Positions 7,935 through 61,238 of a stretch of 64,000 nucleotides of DNA are shown here, piece after piece. The translations under genes and the position numbers were made by a program. The notes under the pieces were generated by a model. The model searched no databases, was not told the DNA's origin, and saw only the letters and a list, made by a program, of their open reading frames with translations. The DNA comes from an uncultured Caulobacterales bacterium (lineage in GTDB: Bacteria > Pseudomonadota > Alphaproteobacteria > Caulobacterales > Maricaulaceae): NCBI GenBank assembly GCA_938001915.1, contig CALLBD010000016.1, positions 1-64,000 on the forward strand, given 5' to 3'. Positions within the stretch are counted from its first letter, which is position 1; each line of letters starts with the position of its first letter.

Positions 7935-8378
7935 ATGAATTTTAACAAAAACATACTTACGCCTTTCGCTGCTTTGCTGGGCGCAGCACTTTTACCAACC
8001 GGCGCTTTTGCATCTAGCGTCGAAACGCGAACCGTCGCCGTTCAGACAGAGATTGACGCAGACGAAGTGCTCGAAATGACAGACATAATCTATGAGGCCG
8101 TTTTGGCAAACGCGGCGGCCAAAACTTTGGACGCAAATAAAGATTGGTTTAGGGTCCTGTATAGAGAAGCCCATACGAAGCCCGTGACACGCAACATATC
8201 GTCCAATGCGGAATCGCGTTACCTTGACCTTGAAAACGGGGATCGGATTGAACTCGAAATCCCGACAAAAGACGTAACTGTTCAAGTTCAGAAAATTGAT
8301 TTTGAAATGGGGACGGGTCCTGCGCCCAAAGTAGAAAACGCGTTTGTTGCGAAGAACCTGATCCTGGCCGATAGCTAA
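7935..8378 (+). CDS. Secreted protein of unknown function
   Basis: A 147-residue protein with a clear Sec signal peptide (MNFNKN, a hydrophobic run, then cleavage after GAFA near residue 27). The mature part is acidic and has no cysteine. It contains a helix-like segment rich in D, E, A and L (near 45-65) followed by beta-rich text with RYLDLENGDRIELEIP. It faintly resembles small periplasmic proteins of alphaproteobacteria, but I do not recognise a family. A strong Shine-Dalgarno AAGGAG lies at 7921-7926 and a good terminator at 8402, so it is a well-defined single-gene unit. Confidence 0.75.
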   Translation: MNFNKNILTPFAALLGAALLPTGAFASSVETRTVAVQTEIDADEVLEMTDIIYEAVLANAAAKTLDANKDWFRVLYREAHTKPVTRNISSNAESRYLDLENGDRIELEIPTKDVTVQVQKIDFEMGTGPAPKVENAFVAKNLILADS

Positions 8379-8401
8379 TCACAAAAGATATTTTAAGTTT
8401 G

Positions 8402-8432
8402 AAGCCTGCCCACACCCACGGGCGGGCTTTTT
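8402..8432 (+). terminator. Rho-independent terminator
   Basis: A perfect 10-bp stem, AAGCCTGCCC (8402-8411) with GGGCGGGCTT (8420-8429; one G-T pair), encloses an 8-base loop and is followed by a T run to 8432. It ends the small secreted-protein gene. Confidence 0.92.
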
Positions 8433-8534
8433 GCCATATTAGGCCAAGAGTCTACAGTGTAAAACTCAGCCCGTTACTCCTACGTATTCATTCCACAAGC
8501 CGACAAAACATTAATCCCAGCGGAGCCGCCTCAC

Positions 8535-9143
8535 ATGAAGTGCTATGTCGCAATCCTAATAAGTCTTGCAGCCTCAGCCTGCACAGCCACTGCGGAACCT
8601 AACTCTATGCCTGATGCTGCAATCGAAACATCTTCTTCCAGCTGCGCAATGCGCTTATCTCTGCGTGATGACAGAGAGATTTCGAATTGGCAAACTGTGC
8701 TAGATGGCGTCATGGGCGGACGATCTACGGGCAATCGTTTTGCTCAAGATGGGCATATGGTGTTTAAAGGCACGATTAATACAAATGGCGGCGGTTTTTC
8801 CTCCATCCGTCGGTCAATGCCGCGCGGGGTTATGGGCGGGGCAGACGCGTTGAAACTCCGTGTGAAACAAGACGGCCGGGCCTATCGGTTGACTTTTCGA
8901 ACAGAGGCCCGCCTGCGCGGGCGGCGCATTAGCTATCAACTGAATATTCCGCAAACGCCCAAAGGCGAATGGGCCGAGGTAACATTACCTCTGAAAGATT
9001 TCCGGACATCTATATTTGGGTATGACGTAACGGCGCCGCCGTTCCGCGCTCAGGATGTGCGCGAAATGGGTATTATTCTGGCGGACGGCATAGATGGGCC
9101 ATTCCAGCTCGGACTGTCAGAAATTGGCTGCGTCAGCGCTTAA
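8535..9143 (+). CDS. CIA30-family protein, probable lipoprotein
   Basis: A 202-residue protein whose middle matches the CIA30 (complex I intermediate-associated protein 30) domain, a jelly-roll fold. It has WQTVLDGVMGGRSTGN, then NGGGFSSIRR, and a C-terminal VREMGIILADG. The N-terminus (MKCYVAILISLAASAC) looks like a lipoprotein signal with Cys at residue 16, although the lipobox ASAC lacks the usual Leu at -3. In bacteria the role of CIA30 proteins is not settled. A link to NADH dehydrogenase assembly is known only for eukaryotes. The stop overlaps the convergent pntB stop by 4 bases. Confidence 0.85.
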   Translation: MKCYVAILISLAASACTATAEPNSMPDAAIETSSSSCAMRLSLRDDREISNWQTVLDGVMGGRSTGNRFAQDGHMVFKGTINTNGGGFSSIRRSMPRGVMGGADALKLRVKQDGRAYRLTFRTEARLRGRRISYQLNIPQTPKGEWAEVTLPLKDFRTSIFGYDVTAPPFRAQDVREMGIILADGIDGPFQLGLSEIGCVSA

Positions 9144-10549
9144 AGCGACTTAATGATTTCCTCAACCATCTTCTTGGCGTCAGACAAAAGCATCATAGTG
9201 TTATCACGATAGAAAAGATCATTATCGATGCCGGCATAACCCGGTGACAAAGAGCGCTTCACGAAGAGAACCGTGCTAGCCTTATCCACGTCCAAAATTG
9301 GCATGCCCGCAATTGGACTTTGAGGATCCGTTTTCGCGGCTGGGTTCGTAACGTCATTTGCCCCGATGACAAAGGCCACATCCGTATTGGCAAATTCAGA
9401 GTTGATATCTTCGAGCTCAAAGACCTCATCATAAGGGACATTGGCTTCCGCCAGCAGGACATTCATGTGACCCGGCATACGGCCCGCAACAGGGTGAATG
9501 GCGTAAACCACATCAACGCCCGCTTCCTTCAGGGCATCTGCCATTTCACGCACAGCATGTTGCGCCTGCGCAACTGCAAGACCATAGCCTGGCACGATGA
9601 TAACTTTTGAGGCGTTCTTCATGATGAAGGCCGCATCTTCTGCAGAGCCGCGTTTAACAGGGCGCTGTTCTTTATCGCCGCTATCAGACGCGCCCGCATC
9701 CGCGCCAAAGCCGCCAAGGATGACCGAGATGAAGCTTCGGTTCATGGCCTTACACATGATATAAGATAGGATAGCGCCAGAAGAGCCGACGAGCGCGCCG
9801 ACAATGATCAGCGCCAAATTACCTAAAGTAAATCCGAGCGCTGCTGCCGCCCAACCCGAATAGGAGTTGAGCATAGAGACAACGACAGGCATATCCGCGC
9901 CGCCAATCGGAATGATAAGCAAGAAGCCAATCAGGAAGGCCGCGCCCAATAGCGCCCAGATTATCCAATGCTCTGTGCCGCCAGATTTCATCAGCATAGC
10001 GATAAGCACGGCAATACCGAGGCCCAAGGCAATGTTAATCAGGTGACGCGCGGGCAGCATGATAGGCGCGCCGCTCATATTTCCGTTCAGTTTCGCAAAG
10101 GCGATAACGGATCCAGAGAAGGTAATCGCGCCAATTACTGCGCCGAGACCTAATTCTAATAGAGAGCCTGCTTTAATGCGGCCTTCGGATAAAATACCGA
10201 AGTCACTGGGACTAAAAAAGGCGGCAATAGCCACAAGCACAGCCGCCAATCCGACGAGCGAGTGAAACGCCGCGACGAGCTGCGGCATATCTGTCATCGG
10301 GATTTTCTTGGCAATAATTGCGCCGATAACCCCGCCGAGCGCCAAGCCAGCGGCAGATAAAATAAAGCCCATACCGTTCATGCCCGCTACCAGCAAAGTC
10401 GTGACAATAGCGATGGCGATACCAATCATTCCAAATGTATTGCCTCGGCGAGAGGTTTCAGGGGAGGACAAGCCGCGAAGGGCAAGAATAAAGAGAACGG
10501 CGGAAACCGTATAGAGAACGGCCGCGAGGTCGGCAGAAAGCTGAGGCAT
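9140..10549 (-). CDS. pntB: NAD(P) transhydrogenase subunit beta
   Basis: Proton-translocating transhydrogenase subunit, 469 residues. The N-terminal half holds about nine membrane helices, and the C-terminal domain III binds NADP(H). Domain III is seen in VIIVPGYGLAVAQAQHAVRE (near 312-331) and AGRMPGHMNVLLAEA, and in a Rossmann-type end at FVIGANDVTNPAA. The enzyme uses the proton gradient to drive NADPH formation from NADH. It is the third gene of the pntAA-pntAB-pntB operon, with a 2-base gap after pntAB. Confidence 0.97.
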   Translation of the reverse strand: MPQLSADLAAVLYTVSAVLFILALRGLSSPETSRRGNTFGMIGIAIAIVTTLLVAGMNGMGFILSAAGLALGGVIGAIIAKKIPMTDMPQLVAAFHSLVGLAAVLVAIAAFFSPSDFGILSEGRIKAGSLLELGLGAVIGAITFSGSVIAFAKLNGNMSGAPIMLPARHLINIALGLGIAVLIAMLMKSGGTEHWIIWALLGAAFLIGFLLIIPIGGADMPVVVSMLNSYSGWAAAALGFTLGNLALIIVGALVGSSGAILSYIMCKAMNRSFISVILGGFGADAGASDSGDKEQRPVKRGSAEDAAFIMKNASKVIIVPGYGLAVAQAQHAVREMADALKEAGVDVVYAIHPVAGRMPGHMNVLLAEANVPYDEVFELEDINSEFANTDVAFVIGANDVTNPAAKTDPQSPIAGMPILDVDKASTVLFVKRSLSPGYAGIDNDLFYRDNTMMLLSDAKKMVEEIIKSL

Positions 10550-12352: not shown

Positions 12353-12615
12353 TTTCTACCCAATCTTCATAAAGAGCGTTGAACTTTGCGGAGCCGATAT
12401 CACGCAGTTAAATGGGAAACAAGCAGCAGGGTCTGTCTCCAACACATTTATTTAGCCTTTGCGGCGCAATATTTTACCTAAATTTCAGTCTATGCCACCG
12501 AGGGATTTACAGTTTTTTCACCATATTCCCAAACCTGAAATTCACCTCCATGCGTCATGTTCTGGGAAGAGAGAGATTCGGACAAACCGTAGCCTCTTTT
12601 TACGCAGGTGAATTT
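12353..12615. promoter_or_regulatory. Divergent promoter region: oxidase IV/pnt operon and sigma-54 regulator
   Basis: A 263-base gap between two divergently transcribed units. It must hold both promoters. I found no clear operator or stem-loop in it. A stretch of open frame continues upstream of the regulator ATG at 12616 but has no coding support. Confidence 0.45.
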
Positions 12616-14070
12616 ATGTCCAAAACTGTACTGATTGTTGATGATGATCCAACACAACGCCGTCTCTTACAGGCTGTTGTTGAAAAATCTGGATTTTCAA
12701 CATTACAAGCCGGAGATGGAGACTCCGCCCTCGCCTTGGCTTTGGGTGCAGAACAAGACAAAATCCATGTCATGCTCCTGGATTTGGTTATGCCGGGCCG
12801 TAACGGCATGGAAACGCTAGAAGAGCTAGCGAAAAAACGCCCGGACCTGCCTGTCATCGTCTTAACGGGCAAAGGCTCCATTGATGCTGTTGTTCAAGCC
12901 ATGAAAGCTGGCGCGCGAGATTTCGTTGTGAAACCCGCCGCGCCCGAAAGAATTATCGTCTCTATTCGCAATGCCTTGGATATGAAAACGCTCGTCAAAG
13001 AGGTGAATCGGTTGAAGAAAACGACTGAAGGCGGGCTTACATTTGAAGACCTTATCGGAAATGCCCCCTCTATGCGCTCGGTCGTCGCTATGGGAGAGCG
13101 CGGCGCAAAGGCGAATATTCCTATTCTCATCACAGGCGAGTCGGGCGTCGGTAAAGAAGTGATCGCACGCGCTATTCAAAGTGCATCCGAGCGCTCCGAT
13201 AAGCCCTTTATCACGGTGAACTGCGGTGCAATTTCCGAAAGCTTGGTTGAGTCTATTCTTTTCGGTCATGAAAAGGGCTCTTTCACAGGCGCAAATTCAA
13301 AGCATTTGGGTAAGTTTCAAGAGGCCCATACGGGCACGCTCTTCCTCGACGAGGTCGGCGAGTTGCCGCTAGAAATGCAAGTCAAACTTCTCCGCGTATT
13401 ACAAGAGGGCGAAGTCGACCCCATTGGCTCGAAACGGACCGTCCCCGTTGACGTTCGGATCATAAGCGCGACAAACCGCGATTTATCTGAAGCGGTCAAA
13501 GACGGAACCTTCCGCGAAGATCTGTATTATCGCCTGAATGTCTTTCCAATCGCCGTGCCGCCCCTGCGGGAGCGCCGCGAGGATATCCCCGCCCTGGTCG
13601 AGCATTTCGTCCGGCGCATCAATGCCGCAGAGCGTTTAAACGTGTCTGGCGCAACGGCGGCAACACTCGATTTGCTCAAATCCCATGAGTGGAAAGGCAA
13701 TGTTCGCCAGTTAGAAAACACGATTTTCCGGGCTATGATATTGTCAGATGGAAATAAGCTGCACCCGCAAGATTTCCCGCAAATATCGGGTCTTACACCG
13801 GGCGTAACGCCGGCCAGTTCCAGCGAAAGCCTTGTAGCGGGCAAACCTCATGAAACCTCAGATGTTTCAGACTCGGCTGTGTCGGTTCTGGACCGTGAAG
13901 GACACTTGCGGACTTTAGAAGACATTGAGCGTGACTTAATTGAATTCGCGATTAGCAATTATTCAGGACACATGTCCGAAGTTGCGCGCCGCCTCGGGAT
14001 TGGCCGCTCGACGCTTTACCGAAAAGTTCGCGAGCATGAATTAGACGTGGATGACGTCCGGTCTGCATAA
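12616..14070 (+). CDS. Sigma-54-dependent response regulator (NtrC family)
   Basis: A 484-residue three-domain regulator. The receiver domain has the acidic pocket VDDD and phosphoacceptor Asp56 in LLDLVMPG. The AAA+ domain has Walker A GESGVGKE, the sigma-54 contact loop, Walker B TLFLDEVG, and RxxR-type sensor residues in [14 protein letters not shown]. The C-terminal Fis-type helix-turn-helix is [20 protein letters not shown]. The contact loop reads GSFTGA instead of the usual GAFTGA, a conservative change also known in active members. No partner kinase is adjacent. I chose ATG 12616 (AGGTG upstream) because the extra N-terminal frame is unlike the family. Confidence 0.92.
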
Positions 14071-54764: not shown

Positions 54765-56611
54765 TGCGCCATATTTTTTTCACAGCTTTAATCGGGGCCT
54801 CTACCCCCGCGTTTGCGCAAATTAATTTTGCTGCAACCTGCCCGGCAGGCGTCATTTCCGAAATTGACGGTCAAATAATCTGCGCAAAACAAGACACGCT
54901 AGATTTGCTTATCACAGATTTTGAAGCCTCCGAGCTAGAATTTGATATTTACAGACGAGGCCAAGAGGGTGATCGCGACGCACTGAGACAACTCCCGGAT
55001 ATCTCTCCTGAGGCCCGCGATAAGAGAAATTCTATAACGACAGCATTTCTTGCGCGGCACTCAGCGCTCTCCACGACCCCGATGCAGGTCGATGAACGCT
55101 TAAATTATGATCTTTTAGGCTTTGTTCTTACGCAGAGGCAACGCCTAGCCCCTTTTGATACAGCGCGCATTCCTTTCACAAATGACAGCGGTTTTTTCAA
55201 TCAATTGTCTTTTGTCGCGCGGCAAACACAATTCAAAGCTCCTGAGGACTACGAGGCCTACGCCGCGCGCCTTACGCGGCTGCCGAAGTTTTTCGCCCAA
55301 GCAAAAGACAATATGCGCCGCGGGATAAGAACAAATTTCACAGCCAGCGCCGAGATATTGCCAGGCATTCAAGAGATGATTGACCGTATGGCAGATAGCT
55401 CCGCAATCGAGCATCCATTATTTGCGCCCTTCAAAACCTTCCCCGAAAATTTTTCAGAGGAAGACAAAACGCGATTAACAGCGCTTGGGCAGGCAGCCAT
55501 CGACAGTGCGGTTCTACCTTCATACCAAAATTTATCCAAATTTATGCGGGAGGAATATACAATAGCGGCGCGCCAAACAGCGGGCTTGGGAACCAGTGAA
55601 ACTCAACGGGAATATTACCGCGCGGTTACTCGGTTCTTCACAACATTAGACATCGGCCCGGATGACGTACATGCTCTAGGCTTGTCCGAAGTCGCCCGCA
55701 TACGCCGGGAAATGGACGCCGTTATCACCGAAATTGGATTCGAAGGTAGTTTTGACGCGTTTCTAACCTTCCTACGAACAGACCCCCAATTTTATGCGAA
55801 AAGCCGTAAAGAATTACTCATGCATGCGAGCTATATCGCAAAACAGATCGACGGGAAAATGCCTCAATATTTTGGCACGCTTCCCCGATTGTCTTACGGC
55901 GTTATTCCGGTTCCTGAAGCGATAGAAAAAACCTATACAACTGGCCGATATTTCAGCGGGAACCCAGAGCGGGGGCAAGCGGGAAATTACGTGGTGAACA
56001 CCTATAACCTACCTAATAGACCGCTATATAACCTTCCCGCACTAACGGCGCATGAGGGCGTACCCGGCCATCATATGCAAATTGCGATAGGTCAGGAATT
56101 AAAGGGTTTGCCAGAATTCCGAAAAAGTCTTTACCCGAATGCCTTTGGTGAAGGGTGGGGGCTCTATGCTGAAAAGCTAGCAGGCGAAATGGGTATTTAC
56201 ACGACGCCCTATGAAAAATTTGGTCAACTCTCTTACGAAATGTGGCGTGCCTGCCGCCTCGTGGTGGATACGGGCTTGCACTGGAAAGGCTGGACCCGCG
56301 AACAAGCCGAAGCTTGCTTCCTAGAGAATTCAGCGTTGGCGCCACATAATATCAAAACGGAAGTGCAAAGATATATTAGTTGGCCAGGTCAGGCCTTGGC
56401 CTATAAAATTGGTGAGCTAAAAATTCTTGAGCTACGCGGCAAAGCCGAAGCGGAACTTGGCGAAGCCTTCGATATTAGGAAGTTTCACGACGCCGTTCTC
56501 TCTAATGGCGGGATTCCGCTCGAGATCTTAGAAGAGCAAGTGCAACGATTTATCTTCGAAGAAAAACAACGGTTCGCACAATCCCTGCCCGTAACGCCGG
56601 CTATCCCATAA
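54761..56611 (+). CDS. DUF885 family protein (putative metallopeptidase)
   Basis: A 616-residue protein with a signal peptide ([15 protein letters not shown]). The C-terminal half carries [11 protein letters not shown] near residue 429, a variant of the zinc HExxH motif, and an acidic segment [15 protein letters not shown] that resembles the third ligand. The DUF885 family is widespread in proteobacteria and is thought to be extracytoplasmic peptidases. Overlaps the dehydratase gene. Confidence 0.88.
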
Positions 56612-56656
56612 AAAAACCCGCCGACCCGTGTCCCATAATGTGACGGGGTCGGCGGG
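56610..56656 (-). terminator. Rho-independent terminator downstream of the first lipo-barrel gene
   Basis: On the minus strand the stem formed by CCCGCCGACCCGT (56617-56629) with ACGGGGTCGGCGGG (56643-56656; one extra G) is followed by a T run (plus-strand A run 56610-56616). It sits between the convergent DUF885 gene and the barrel gene. Confidence 0.85.
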
Positions 56657-56700: not shown

Positions 56701-57546
56701 TTAGAAGCGGTAACGACCACGCAATGTGAGCGGTATAGACAGACGCCCGTTACTATTGTTCAAACCGCCTAATTGTGAACCCGCGCCCAGCACAGACGTA
56801 TCAGACTTTAGGCCGCCTTGATAACGTAGGCCTGTTTCCAAACCAATTGTTGTGTATTTAGCCACAGGTGTCTCGATGCCGATAAGACCTGCCGCAGTTG
56901 GAACCCAGCTATCTTCATAGAAACCAATATTTGGGTTCAATGCTGTGTCACCAAGTTGCGTATCTCTCAAAGCAATGTCATCGACATGACTTACGCCAGC
57001 ACGCGCTTCAACGTAAGGGCGGACGCTTTTGAGAATGACACCATTGACAGGACGAAAATACTGACGAAGACCTAGTTCAGCACCATAGGCTTGGTACCCG
57101 GTTAATTCGCCCGACAGGGCTTGGCCGCCGATTGTACCTAAATCTTGAACACCATCGGAACTTGCTTCTTCGTAATGACCTAGAAGTGTGATCTTCGTAT
57201 TGGGTGCCAAGGCATAGGACCCACCAAGCTCTGCACGAACGCCCGTGTTATAAGCTTCGCTAAATGACACTGAATTGAAGTCATTATTTGGATTTGGGTT
57301 CGTACGGCTAGCCGTAATCACATTGTTCCCAACGGGGAATGACGCGCCGATGCCGCCTTCTAAATTCCAGCGGGCCAAACAATTGCCTGTGTGGCACTTG
57401 GATGTTGTCACAGGTTTATGCGCCGCTTGTTGGCTATAATACCCTGTTGAGTTGTTATATTTCGTGGTTGCTTTATTTCCGCCGAGGCCAAGGAAAGAAC
57501 ATCCTGACAAAGCGACAGCCGCTGCTCCGAGCATAAGAATACGCAT
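56701..57546 (-). CDS. Lipid-anchored outer-membrane beta-barrel protein, paralogue 1
   Basis: A 281-residue protein. The lipobox ALSGC places a lipid on Cys16, followed by FLGLGG. Residues about 22-60 form a polar linker (N, T, Y, S, Q) with two cysteines in SKCHTGNC. The rest is beta-rich, with repeated strands such as GLRQYFRPVNG, RPYVEARAGVSHVDD and YTTIGLETGLRYQGG, and ends in LRGRYRF, an aromatic C-terminus expected for a barrel. It shares the end with the two genes upstream. Shine-Dalgarno AGGGTG precedes the ATG. It is the shortest of three tandem paralogues. Confidence 0.8.
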   Translation of the reverse strand: MRILMLGAAAVALSGCSFLGLGGNKATTKYNNSTGYYSQQAAHKPVTTSKCHTGNCLARWNLEGGIGASFPVGNNVITASRTNPNPNNDFNSVSFSEAYNTGVRAELGGSYALAPNTKITLLGHYEEASSDGVQDLGTIGGQALSGELTGYQAYGAELGLRQYFRPVNGVILKSVRPYVEARAGVSHVDDIALRDTQLGDTALNPNIGFYEDSWVPTAAGLIGIETPVAKYTTIGLETGLRYQGGLKSDTSVLGAGSQLGGLNNSNGRLSIPLTLRGRYRF

Positions 57547-57862
57547 AGTATCACCCTATATGTTCCGGATTGGCACAATTGCCGAAGGTTTCCGGTGTCT
57601 CACGGGTCAGCTTTGCAAAAGAAGGGCCAGAAATACCCTGGCAAGTTTTTCACCTCCCAAAATTATTCCCACACTTCACGGCATCACCAAATACCCAAGT
57701 TTCAGTAACGTCGACCGCACCAGCGTATTATCAGCACTAAAGTCTCAATTACCTTGAGGCACCTTAGAGGGGTTAGCTTATTTTCGAGTGAAGTTATGTG
57801 GTAAAAAATCTATGAATCTGGTTTGCATTAAAAAGACCTAATATTGCTGATATATTCAGGCC

Positions 57863-57890
57863 AAAAAAAACCCGACCACAAGGGCCGGGC
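57863..57890 (-). terminator. Rho-independent terminator of the second lipo-barrel gene
   Basis: On the minus strand, GGCCGGG (57883-57889) pairs with cccgacc (57871-57877; one G-T) and an eight-T run follows (plus-strand A run 57863-57870). It ends the 57913-59361 gene. The rest of the 366-base gap (57547-57912) has no gene. Confidence 0.88.
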
Positions 57891-57912
57891 TAAAATTAAA
57901 TTTCGGAGCGCT

Positions 57913-59361
57913 TTAGAAGGCCACTCTTCCGCGTAAATTAACCGGAATAGAGAAACGGTCATCACTTCTTACACCATCGCCCTTCAGGCCATCACGCCAG
58001 CGAATGCCCGTTTCAACACCAATCGCTGCGCGCGGTCCTACAGCCATTTCAGCACCTAAAATACCTGAAGCGGTTGGGCGCCAGCCACTTTCAATAAACT
58101 CACCGGTAGGTGAAAAGACTTCGCCCGTATCAGTAAAGTTCTGGGTAACCTCTACGTCATTATTATAAGTAAAACCGCCGGTTGCGCCAACATATGGGCG
58201 TAATCCGATACCGTTTCCGACATATTGACGAACGCCAGCTTCAAATGTGTACTGACGTAAATCAGTAAAGGAAGCTTCTAAATCACGCTCAACAACGCCC
58301 ATATCCGGCGTAAAAGCTGCAATATTTGGGTTTGCTGGATCAGCAAATACACCCGAGATGAATGAGCCCGCGTCGACCGTCTGACCGCTCTTCTCAGAGT
58401 AAGCAGCAGACGCTAATAAGGTTGTGTTCCGAGATACATCATATGTCCCTGCCCCGCCAATATTGTAACCTTCAGAGAAAGCATCGCTATATTGGACGTC
58501 ATCAAACTCGCCGGCAATACCGGGGCTAGGCGATCCGTCACCTGGATTAGATGGGCTTCTCTCCCGGCCGCTTTTCGCAGCGCCATCAATATCAAATTCT
58601 GTACCGCCGAACACTTCAAAACCGAAAGGCAATGCAGCGCCTACGCCGCGGAGCTGTGGTACACCGAAAGGTGCGGCATAAGGTTGTGGAACGTAAATTG
58701 GCGCGCCAACAACATTTTGCACAGCCGCCCCATTAACAAATTGACCATTTCCAAATTGTGTTCCGACAACATTTCCGCCGAAGCCCGCATTTCCAAACTG
58801 AGCGCCAGCGCCGCCATTTGTAAATACAGTATTTCCGCCGAAGCCACCGCCTATACCTTGCGCGGCTAATCCAGGACTAACGACCCCAGGTCCAAACCCT
58901 GCACCGCCAGCGCCGAAACCGGCTTGACCAAAGCCCGCTCCCCCTGGTCCAAATCCTGCGCCGCCAGCACCAAAGCCAGCTTGACCGAAGCCCGCCCCGC
59001 CTGGTCCAAATCCCACACCGCCAGCACCAAAGCCAGCTTGACCGAAGCCCGCAGCGCCTGGTCCAAATCCTGCGCCGCCAGCACCATATCCGTTTAGTCC
59101 TGCGCCATATGCATCGCCGTAGCCCTGCCCTGCGCCGTAACCTTGAGCAACGCCATAAGCTCCGCCAGCACAACCCGCGTCATATCCGCCGCCATACGCG
59201 GCAGCTTGACCATATTGACCATATGCTGCTGATTGACCTGGAATACAGTTAGCGCCGTAAGCACCACCCGCTGTTCCGTATCCGTTACTCTGACCGCCCA
59301 TGCCCAACCACGAGCAACCTGACAATAAAACCGCTGATAAAGCGCAAGCTGCAAGACGCAT
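57913..59361 (-). CDS. Lipid-anchored outer-membrane beta-barrel with Gly-rich repeat domain, paralogue 2
   Basis: A 482-residue protein with lipobox LLSGC (Cys16), followed by SWLGMGGQS. Residues about 20-240 are a low-complexity Gly/Ala/Tyr/Phe/Gln region. It contains three full and one partial 19-residue repeats (residues 93-159), each with two GFG-type steps. The C-terminal 230 residues are the barrel, with LRQYTFEAGVRQYVGNG, GLRPYVGATGGFTYNND and AIGVETGIRWRDG, ending LRGRVAF. The ATG has a perfect Shine-Dalgarno (AAGGAGG). It is paralogous to the neighbours on both sides. Confidence 0.82.
   Translation of the reverse strand: MRLAACALSAVLLSGCSWLGMGGQSNGYGTAGGAYGANCIPGQSAAYGQYGQAAAYGGGYDAGCAGGAYGVAQGYGAGQGYGDAYGAGLNGYGAGGAGFGPGAAGFGQAGFGAGGVGFGPGGAGFGQAGFGAGGAGFGPGGAGFGQAGFGAGGAGFGPGVVSPGLAAQGIGGGFGGNTVFTNGGAGAQFGNAGFGGNVVGTQFGNGQFVNGAAVQNVVGAPIYVPQPYAAPFGVPQLRGVGAALPFGFEVFGGTEFDIDGAAKSGRERSPSNPGDGSPSPGIAGEFDDVQYSDAFSEGYNIGGAGTYDVSRNTTLLASAAYSEKSGQTVDAGSFISGVFADPANPNIAAFTPDMGVVERDLEASFTDLRQYTFEAGVRQYVGNGIGLRPYVGATGGFTYNNDVEVTQNFTDTGEVFSPTGEFIESGWRPTASGILGAEMAVGPRAAIGVETGIRWRDGLKGDGVRSDDRFSIPVNLRGRVAF
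58885..59085 (-). repeat. Tandem 57-base (19-codon) Gly-rich repeat
   Basis: Three full units and one partial unit of 57 bases inside the paralogue-2 gene, encoding residues 93-159. They differ at a few positions, so they are likely recent expansion by slippage or recombination and may vary between strains. Confidence 0.88.
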
Positions 59362-59508
59362 ATCGGCCTCCTTCTCTTTTTTTTAATTCAAGAACTTCTG
59401 ATTTGTTTTAAAACAGAATATACTTAAAAAAACGTTCCCAAACTGGAAACAAACCCTTAACGAATCCAAGTCTTTGCTTGGTTAACGCTACTTAAATTTT
59501 CACACGCC

Positions 59509-60888
59509 CTAAAAATTGACTGATCCTCGCAATGTGAATGGAACGGAGACGTTCACATCTCCTTTGGATCCCTCGACAAATTCTCCAGCTGAATTTGTGA
59601 AATCAGCGTAATCACGGCTACCTTGGACACGTAGTCCCGTCTCCGCCGCAATCGCAAAGCCAGGCGTTAACTGCCATTCAGCCCCAAAATTTAGCTGACC
59701 TTGGGGCAACCATTGCGAGTCATAAAGCTCTGTTGTTGATCCATCTGTAGGAACAGAGAAGCTGTTGCCTTCTGTCGTTCCAGCACTGAAAGACGTATCA
59801 TAGGACGCTTGTGTTTGATTTGTTTTAAAACTAACGGCATTTACATGTGATACGCCGACAGACGCCCCAACAAATGGCGTAATTGTTTTATATCCATCCG
59901 TTCTAACAATAGGGTTGAAATAACGACGCGCACCGACCTCTAAGTCATACCGCTGAAGGTCTGAGAAATCATAAGCGAAGCGCGCAATCTCTTGATTGGG
60001 TATAAAAGTCTCATTGACGGACGGAGGCCCGTTCGGAGTGAACTGACCCGGAATTTCATCGCCGTTTGCATCAACACTTGGAATCCAATCCTGACTAACC
60101 ACTTGTTCATATAGCGTGGCGTTAACTGTCGAGACCGTGAGGTCTTTGCCTTCCGAATAAGCATACCCACCATTTACAAACACGGTCGTATTATCGTTGA
60201 CAATATATTCTAGGCCCGCTTTCAGGCTGGCGGGCGTCGACCATACATCATCGAAAGAGACCGTCGGGTTGCTCGCGCTTTCAAATGTATTAGGCGCAAA
60301 AATATTCGCGGCATCCTGCTCATTGGCGGTATATCTTGTGGTTGTCACGCGTCCAGAGGCTTGGGAGCCGGCTTCCCGCCCTCTGTTGAAATCTTGAGGA
60401 TTATAACCGCCTGAGGGACTTAAATCATCGCGGACATCGAAATCGAGCAAGCTCCCAGAGATACTTTTCTCAACACCAAGTGACAAAGAGCCCCGTAACC
60501 GCGGCTTTCTTATTCTTTGACCTGAAGTCTGAGCGGCATGCACTGGCGCTTGCCCTACGGCATTTCCATATCCGCCATTTGTAAATTGCGGTTGACCAAA
60601 TTGTGGTTGCTGAGGGAAGCCCCCATGCGCGCCATAAGCGGCATTACCTGGCCCTTGAGCAAATGTCCCGATTGTGACTTGCTCTGGCCGACATCCGCGC
60701 GGAATAGGCTGACGCGGCGACGCGATTTGACAGCGCTGACTAGCCCGTTGACCATATTGGCCATACTGCGCTGTCTTTTGCTTGGCATAGGGATTCGCAT
60801 TTTGGGAGGATTGGCCACCAATAAATGAACAGCCCGAAAGGAGTGCCGTCGACAAAGTTGTCGACAAAATTACAGTTCCCAGACGCAT
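59509..60888 (-). CDS. Lipid-anchored outer-membrane beta-barrel protein, paralogue 3
   Basis: A 459-residue protein with lipobox LLSGC (Cys20) followed by SFIGGQSSQ. Residues about 25-125 are Gln/Gly/Tyr/Pro-rich (QYGQYGQRASQRC, FPQQPQFGQPQF). The C-terminal barrel has RYDLEVGARRYFNP, TPFVGASVGVSHVN and FAIAAETGLRVQGSRD, and ends LRGSVNF. The Shine-Dalgarno GGGGGA precedes the ATG. The order of common blocks (lipid Cys, short Gly step, linker, barrel) is the same in all three genes. It is the first of the three transcribed leftwards. Confidence 0.81.
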   Translation of the reverse strand: MRLGTVILSTTLSTALLSGCSFIGGQSSQNANPYAKQKTAQYGQYGQRASQRCQIASPRQPIPRGCRPEQVTIGTFAQGPGNAAYGAHGGFPQQPQFGQPQFTNGGYGNAVGQAPVHAAQTSGQRIRKPRLRGSLSLGVEKSISGSLLDFDVRDDLSPSGGYNPQDFNRGREAGSQASGRVTTTRYTANEQDAANIFAPNTFESASNPTVSFDDVWSTPASLKAGLEYIVNDNTTVFVNGGYAYSEGKDLTVSTVNATLYEQVVSQDWIPSVDANGDEIPGQFTPNGPPSVNETFIPNQEIARFAYDFSDLQRYDLEVGARRYFNPIVRTDGYKTITPFVGASVGVSHVNAVSFKTNQTQASYDTSFSAGTTEGNSFSVPTDGSTTELYDSQWLPQGQLNFGAEWQLTPGFAIAAETGLRVQGSRDYADFTNSAGEFVEGSKGDVNVSVPFTLRGSVNF

Positions 60889-61238
60889 ATCGTCCCCCGC
60901 ATTCGAATATGGGAAACGGATGTTTTCCCATCATGGTTAACGTTGGGAATGAAGGAACTTGTTTAACAATGGGTTTAGGCGCAGCATTTTAGGCGGATGA
61001 GACTGCGTCTTAGCGGATTTTACGTGATAATTAGACGAAAACAGGGTTTTTTTGGGTGCTGGAGGCTAGGAAAAAAGAAAATTTACACGTTTTGAAATAG
61101 TAAGGGCTCTCTTAATACAGGGTTTTCGGCCAATGATTCGACTAATTTTCGATCTGGGTTTTAGAATGTCTATCTGCCTTATCTGAACCGCTGGCCGGAT
61201 ATATTGCTTTTGCGACAACTTATCTTCAAAGGTGACCT
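60889..61238. promoter_or_regulatory. Divergent intergenic region with ATGGGAAA-N7-TTTCCCAT inverted repeat
   Basis: A 350-base gap between the third lipo-barrel gene and the pyridoxal-kinase operon. An 8-bp perfect inverted repeat, ATGGGAAA (60909-60916) and TTTCCCAT (60924-60931), lies 20-43 bases upstream of the barrel ATG, a likely operator position. AAAGGTGA lies before the GTG at 61239. I saw no gene in the gap. Confidence 0.5.

Follow-up and report, generated by a model that had tools for sequence, protein, structure and literature searches.

A conserved tandem array of three putative lipid-anchored OmpA-fold barrel proteins with differing promoter signals

Background

The lipidated TolC-family proteins OprM and CusC carry an N-terminal lipid in the inner leaflet together with an integral outer-membrane barrel (PMC13082787), and the Slam-dependent lipoproteins TbpB, fHbp and HpuA join a lipid and a variable N-terminal region to an 8-stranded, soluble C-terminal barrel (PMC5449769). 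In RcsF-OMP complexes, a lipoprotein with a flexible segment cooperates with a barrel (PMC11784454). OmpA, OprF and NspA possess a membrane barrel domain of 8 strands with short periplasmic turns, long loops and a C-terminal Phe. It is poorly understood how bacteria that are dimorphic and form stalks give the stalk or pole an outer membrane of its own, and few known outer-membrane proteins have developmental promoters to match.

An initial annotation of the window (the whole 64,000-nucleotide stretch of DNA analysed here) singled out three adjacent genes whose products each appeared to combine a lipoprotein signal, a linker and a barrel. It described lipid plus barrel as an uncommon pairing, which the OprM, CusC and Slam-dependent precedents make less exceptional than claimed. 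Here we compare this locus with those systems, its relatives in other genomes and its upstream regions.

Results

The three open reading frames, called A, B and C in their order of transcription, all lie on the minus strand at the coordinates first annotated. Gene A (59509..60888) encodes 459 residues, with lipobox Cys20, a linker at 21-130 and a barrel at 131-459; gene B (57913..59361) encodes 482 residues, with lipobox Cys16, a Gly/Ala-rich linker to about residue 234 and a barrel from about 235; gene C (56701..57546) encodes 281 residues, with lipobox Cys16, a linker at 17-59 that includes Cys51 and Cys56, and a barrel at 60-281. They align as paralogues, A and B being 31-36% identical to C with 59 invariant columns. 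Each begins with a signal peptide and an LSGC lipobox with Ser at +2 (no Asp at this position), the lipobox is retained in nearly all orthologues, and the C-terminal ends are LRGRYRF, LRGRVAF and LRGSVNF, every listed member terminating in F. Both the tandem, same-direction paralogy of the initial annotation and its protein layout, with a C-terminal LRG-x-x-F, are thus borne out. Its proposal that each gene has its own Shine-Dalgarno sequence holds for B and A, which are preceded by GGAGG/GGGGGA-like motifs, whereas only GGGTGA is visible before C. Separate terminators had been proposed for at least two genes, and the terminator scan agrees: a clear intrinsic terminator lies 3' of B (57869..57891, minus strand), and a terminator-like hairpin with T-run (59451-59433, minus strand) can serve A. 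A long bidirectional hairpin beyond C (~56610-56656) was read directly from the sequence, its long loop keeping it off the scan list. No Rfam family matched in the array region. The source genome is a draft of 2.6 Mb in 120 contigs, 89.65% complete.

AlphaFold2 models, built from alignments of 9 sequences each and of moderate confidence, show both C (mean pLDDT 68, pTM 0.64) and A (mean pLDDT 66, pTM 0.54) as barrels of 8 strands, in keeping with the barrel first proposed from sequence; the barrel of B was assigned by sequence alignment only. By VIA-align, the solved structures closest to the two models are NspA (Z 17.8 and 18.8), a porin of a Legionella secretion machine (17.8 and 19.6), OprF (17.6 and 18.0) and OmpA (16.3 and 17.2), with OmpW and OprG also among the neighbours (13.6-16.4), and Foldseek is consistent with this result. 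Each strand presents one hydrophobic face and one polar or glycine-rich face, with a mean difference reached by 0 of 2000 within-strand shuffles, and the polar face bears conserved charged residues. In the C and A models the strands are connected by long loops of 20-110 residues alternating with short turns of 2-12, and both termini are on the short-turn side. The extracellular loops of A vary strongly while the strands stay fixed, loop 2 (EL2) ranging over 43-111 residues.

Profile searches for the common barrel brought A, B and C to no Pfam or NCBIfam family at cut-off. Some members show a weak, sub-threshold likeness to OMP_b-brl (PF13505, best E 3.7e-5) and Surface_Ag_2 (PF01617, best E 0.007), all listed scores falling below the curated cut-offs (23.7 vs 28.7 bits in the best listed relative for the former, 15.5 vs 22 bits for the latter), and the Pfam scan found no PF13505 match in A, B or C themselves. 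The same scan found no OmpA_C peptidoglycan-binding domain in the three proteins, whose barrel runs to the C-terminus, and a PDB sequence search with a 30-member profile returned no relative (best E 0.086). As modelled, the domain is a membrane barrel of the OmpA class, outside any named family.

This fold bears on two alternative accounts of the array. Its members could be small channels or porin-like pathways, OmpW/OprG-like paralogues for different growth stages in which lipid and linker aid targeting or assembly, as proposed for lipidated TolC homologues; OmpW and OprG are structural neighbours, and lipidated barrels exist in the TolC family (PMC13082787). A plasmid search recovered distant Asticcacaulis homologues only, and the one annotated case adjoins genes for a TonB-dependent receptor, a substrate-binding protein and a glycosyl hydrolase, neighbours that suggest sugar uptake in this single instance. 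However, an 8-stranded barrel whose polar interior is packed does not usually form an open pore, no transport genes lie beside the array in the window, and a shared fold does not show function; we regard a channel role as unlikely. A Slam-type surface lipoprotein, in which a soluble 8-stranded barrel with a variable handle is flipped outward by the Slam translocon, would likewise have a lipid, a variable N-terminal region and an 8-stranded C-terminal barrel, as described for that family (PMC5449769). Against it, the nearest structures are transmembrane barrels, and the C-terminal strand has a Phe-type beta-signal. TbpB and fHbp are absent from the listed rows, which by itself is uninformative, and a search for Slam (PF04575) found no match in this genome, nor in any control genome. 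We judge this account very improbable.

The short-turn side is the periplasmic one in every known barrel of this class, and both termini lie on that side in the models. The lipid and the linker should therefore sit in the periplasm, where the linker would form a loop with each end fixed to the outer membrane. We infer lipidation and periplasmic placement for A, B and C alike. The linkers differ among the three proteins. That of A (14% Q, 14% G) is 105-128 residues long in 21 orthologues, varying less than extracellular loop 2, and has exactly two Cys wherever it can be delimited, in the motif CQI-x6-7-P-x-GC-x-P. This Cys53-Cys66 element, CQIASPRQPIPRGC (60691..60732, minus strand), keeps its Cys pair in all aligned orthologues and is modelled as a small hairpin (pLDDT ~65). 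Most orthologues of C have a Cys pair directly ahead of the first strand, and most of those of B have at least two Cys. The B linker (38% G, 18% A, 6% Q, 5% N) contains a 57-bp (19-aa) tandem repeat in 3.6 copies (58884..59086, minus strand) and shows many alignment gaps between close relatives; among A, B and C it is the only slippage-prone repeat linker. Aligned linker codons are under purifying selection wherever this is computable (dN/dS 0.05-0.43, a qualitative indication with synonymous sites near saturation).

The initial annotation had read these linkers as prion-like, fast-evolving, surface-exposed or phase-forming segments. The prion-like label fits poorly because the B linker is Gly/Ala-rich instead of Gln/Asn-rich; fast evolution describes the repetitive, gap-rich B linker but not that of A, with its narrow length range and invariant Cys pair; and a surface or phase-forming position conflicts with termini on a side that is periplasmic in this fold class. 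A broader form of the surface account takes the array products to be variable adhesins, phage receptors or matrix formers, whose loops or outward-threaded linkers meet the environment. The wide range of EL2 lengths in A, with loops variable while strands are fixed, would suit it, as would the Gly-rich B linker that changes by slippage, and the lipoprotein RcsF does take a trans-membrane path through the lumen of an OMP (PMC11784454). The default topology nevertheless puts lipid and linker in the periplasm, the computable dN/dS values point to constraint (with the caveat of near-saturated synonymous sites), and the Cys pair and A linker length are conserved. We find the surface account doubtful.

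Relatives were found by protein search in 28 of 60 nearby genomes. A barrel-profile search of the surrounding DNA recovered the complete A-B-C order in 6 further genera and, within the genus, in 16 of 17 species sampled in addition to that of the window (the 17th has B-C instead); the named species of the genus is Litorimonas cladophorae (Robiginitomaculaceae). Chance does not explain this arrangement, since the A-B-C order is found in 23 genomes. One genome has two copies of the array, and a few have extra single lipoprotein barrel copies elsewhere. Two same-genus genomes carry extra lipoprotein barrels outside the array (L065, at 8332-10202 on the minus strand, and L064), in one case as a tandem pair; in the tree these copies are placed next to the C group. 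Relatives also encode, near the array, a secreted protein that is conserved and has internal repeats (PAQYASGSQ.../PAEYSTI...) (L036 11689-12846 and L037 11636-13024, plus strand).

In a tree of 84 barrels, all A sequences form one group (support 100), as do all B sequences (support 100), and the C group also takes in a few single copies and one fourth gene. Since the barrels of each paralogue group together (C with these few extras), the triplication would predate the split of these genera and, judged from the tree, is old. Other families of the order mostly have one barrel copy, and the outgroup barrels examined, drawn from those families and from distant members of the class, start with an ordinary Sec signal (e.g. 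...SPALA-DS) without lipobox or linker; the lipid anchor and linker therefore look like a derived state of this lineage. The protein search found no match in 11 other genera of the same family. A DUF885 gene was located in 9 genomes from array-less genera of the family with no barrel detected beside it, so the absence of the array there is probably real; in these genera the DUF885 gene usually adjoins a flavoprotein-subunit gene that is succinate dehydrogenase-like by its N-terminus.

Each of the three genes has a strongly conserved upstream region that differs from the other two; the promoter signals of A and C described here did not figure in the initial annotation. Genome-wide promoter statistics are from pattern searches, and an EcfG-type general-stress promoter pattern showed no enrichment in the upstream regions. 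Upstream of A, a conserved block (60933..60969, minus strand) reads TTGTTAAACAA ... GTTAACCAT, the latter containing a CtrA half-site, in the layout TTGTTAAGCAA, about 20 nt, then GTTAACCAT. The motif TTAACCAT, a published CtrA half-site (PMC6180460, PMC3692519), precedes A in 20 of 21 orthologues, compared with 0.12 in shuffled sequence; the copy before A is the only one in the window, and the joint upstream pattern occurs once in the genome. The full CtrA site TTAA-N7-TTAA was absent before A in the upstream-region motif search. With its half-site, A is a predicted CtrA target.

Between A and B, a conserved block (59362..59475, minus strand) of the form GTTAAGG-TTTGTT ... TTTGGGAAC ... TTTTTTAAGTAT is a candidate promoter region for B. 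It overlaps the hairpin that may end A; the block as a whole was dropped as a promoter, part of it being terminator-like in the window, and for it we claim conservation only.

We assigned a sigma-54 promoter where TGGCNY-N5-TTGCW lies upstream and rpoN is present, and C has both: the -24/-12 type element TGGCCCTTCTTTTGCA (57614..57629, minus strand) precedes the gene and rpoN is encoded in the genome. Upstream of C, 21 of 25 orthologues carry the strict form TGGC[AC]Y-N5-TTGCW, compared with 0.01 in shuffled sequence; the genome has few sigma-54-like sites (13, vs 3 for the reversed control pattern). An inverted repeat, GGCAATTGTGCC (57572..57583, minus strand), follows 30 nt after the -12 element of C, is conserved across genera and is single-copy in the genome; GGCRATTGTGCC, likewise found once in the genome, usually lies 27-30 nt past the sigma-54 element in orthologues. 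Elsewhere in the genome, another strict sigma-54 element (L097, contig C27, 3646-3661) lies 32 nt before the gene for a secreted protein of 196 aa, rich in Ser, Gly and Tyr, whose Cys look conserved (CGSGLYCGQ..., YVRYPVPVAVPY), a possible co-regulated envelope protein. Four further sigma-54-like sites (L094, L100, L104, L105) lie 30-45 nt before genes for an HTH regulator, a lipoprotein metalloprotease-like product, a 228-aa protein and a 153-aa secreted protein.

A candidate activator of C is encoded in the window itself at 12412..14070 (plus strand, probable start 12616), an NtrC/TacA-type sigma-54 response regulator with a GSFTGA loop and a perhaps TacA-like N-terminus. Among the four enhancer-binding-type proteins read, it alone has the G[AST]FTGA loop, the NtrC-, NtrX- and PspF-like ones lacking it, and it reached no NCBIfam model at cut-off. 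The flagellin N-terminal domain was not found in the genome, though the control matched; the absence of both FlbD and flagellin is weak evidence because the draft is 89.65% complete. The presence of a GSFTGA activator in the window without flagellin in the genome argues that C is probably not of the flagellar class and is probably a target of this TacA/NtrC-like regulator, the identity of the protein bound at A and at C being predicted from such sequence features. Genes for swarmer-to-stalked morphogenesis are under TacA control in Caulobacter (PMC7010744), and loss of the CckA pathway, which controls CtrA, lowers tacA, staR and spmX (PMC12421884).

Discussion

The explanation we favour, with a confidence that falls a little short of even, is that A, B and C are developmentally timed OmpA-fold outer-membrane proteins with a derived lipid and periplasmic linker, acting structurally at the growing pole or prostheca. 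An ancient triplication would have given rise to a set of 8-stranded OmpA-fold proteins, which in this lineage would have acquired a lipid anchor at the N-terminus and a periplasmic linker that the conserved Cys pair closes. Once exported by Sec and lipidated, each protein would insert its barrel in the outer membrane with the long variable loops outside, leaving the linker as a periplasmic loop held by the lipid at one end and by the first barrel strand at the other, so that linkers would act in the periplasm and loops would face outward. The genes would be expressed at different times: A from its CtrA-type promoter, B from a conserved promoter of its own, and C from its sigma-54 promoter, with the TacA/NtrC-like regulator of this window as the probable activator. 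Their most likely job would be structural, the stage-specific shaping or bracing of the outer membrane in the developing cell, at the pole or prostheca. Because no peptidoglycan-binding domain was recognised in A, B or C, we infer the bracing role indirectly. A more specific version, to which we give little credence as yet, is a lineage-specific trio of lipid-tethered barrels assigned to separate cell-cycle stages (CtrA for A, a sigma-54/TacA-type system for C and a third system for B), with disulfide-closed periplasmic linkers that would construct or label a specialised outer-membrane region, for example the prostheca.

A conserved, previously undescribed trio with differing stage-specific promoter signals offers a direct genetic handle on outer-membrane development. 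The combination of lipid, closed linker and OmpA-type barrel in one chain also raises a question of biogenesis: whether such a protein follows the lipoprotein route, the barrel route or both.

The literature search found no description of this protein type, and we found no precedent, in the libraries and literature searched, for a single chain of lipid, long Cys-containing linker and OmpA-fold barrel encoded as a conserved tandem trio with different promoters. Known systems share parts of it. The OmpA, OprF and NspA barrel domain is the closest in fold (VIA Z 16-19), at 9-18% sequence identity, whereas A, B and C are without the OmpA-type C-terminal domain and have the N-terminal lipid and linker. 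OprM and CusC resemble them in joining an N-terminal lipid to an integral barrel but form a trimeric 12-stranded channel with a helical tunnel and have no long disordered linker between lipid and barrel. TbpB, fHbp and HpuA, similar in their order of parts, differ in their soluble barrel, beta-rich handle and Slam-mediated surface display. The RcsF-OMP complexes divide between two separate proteins, lipoprotein and barrel, what the array proteins carry in one chain.
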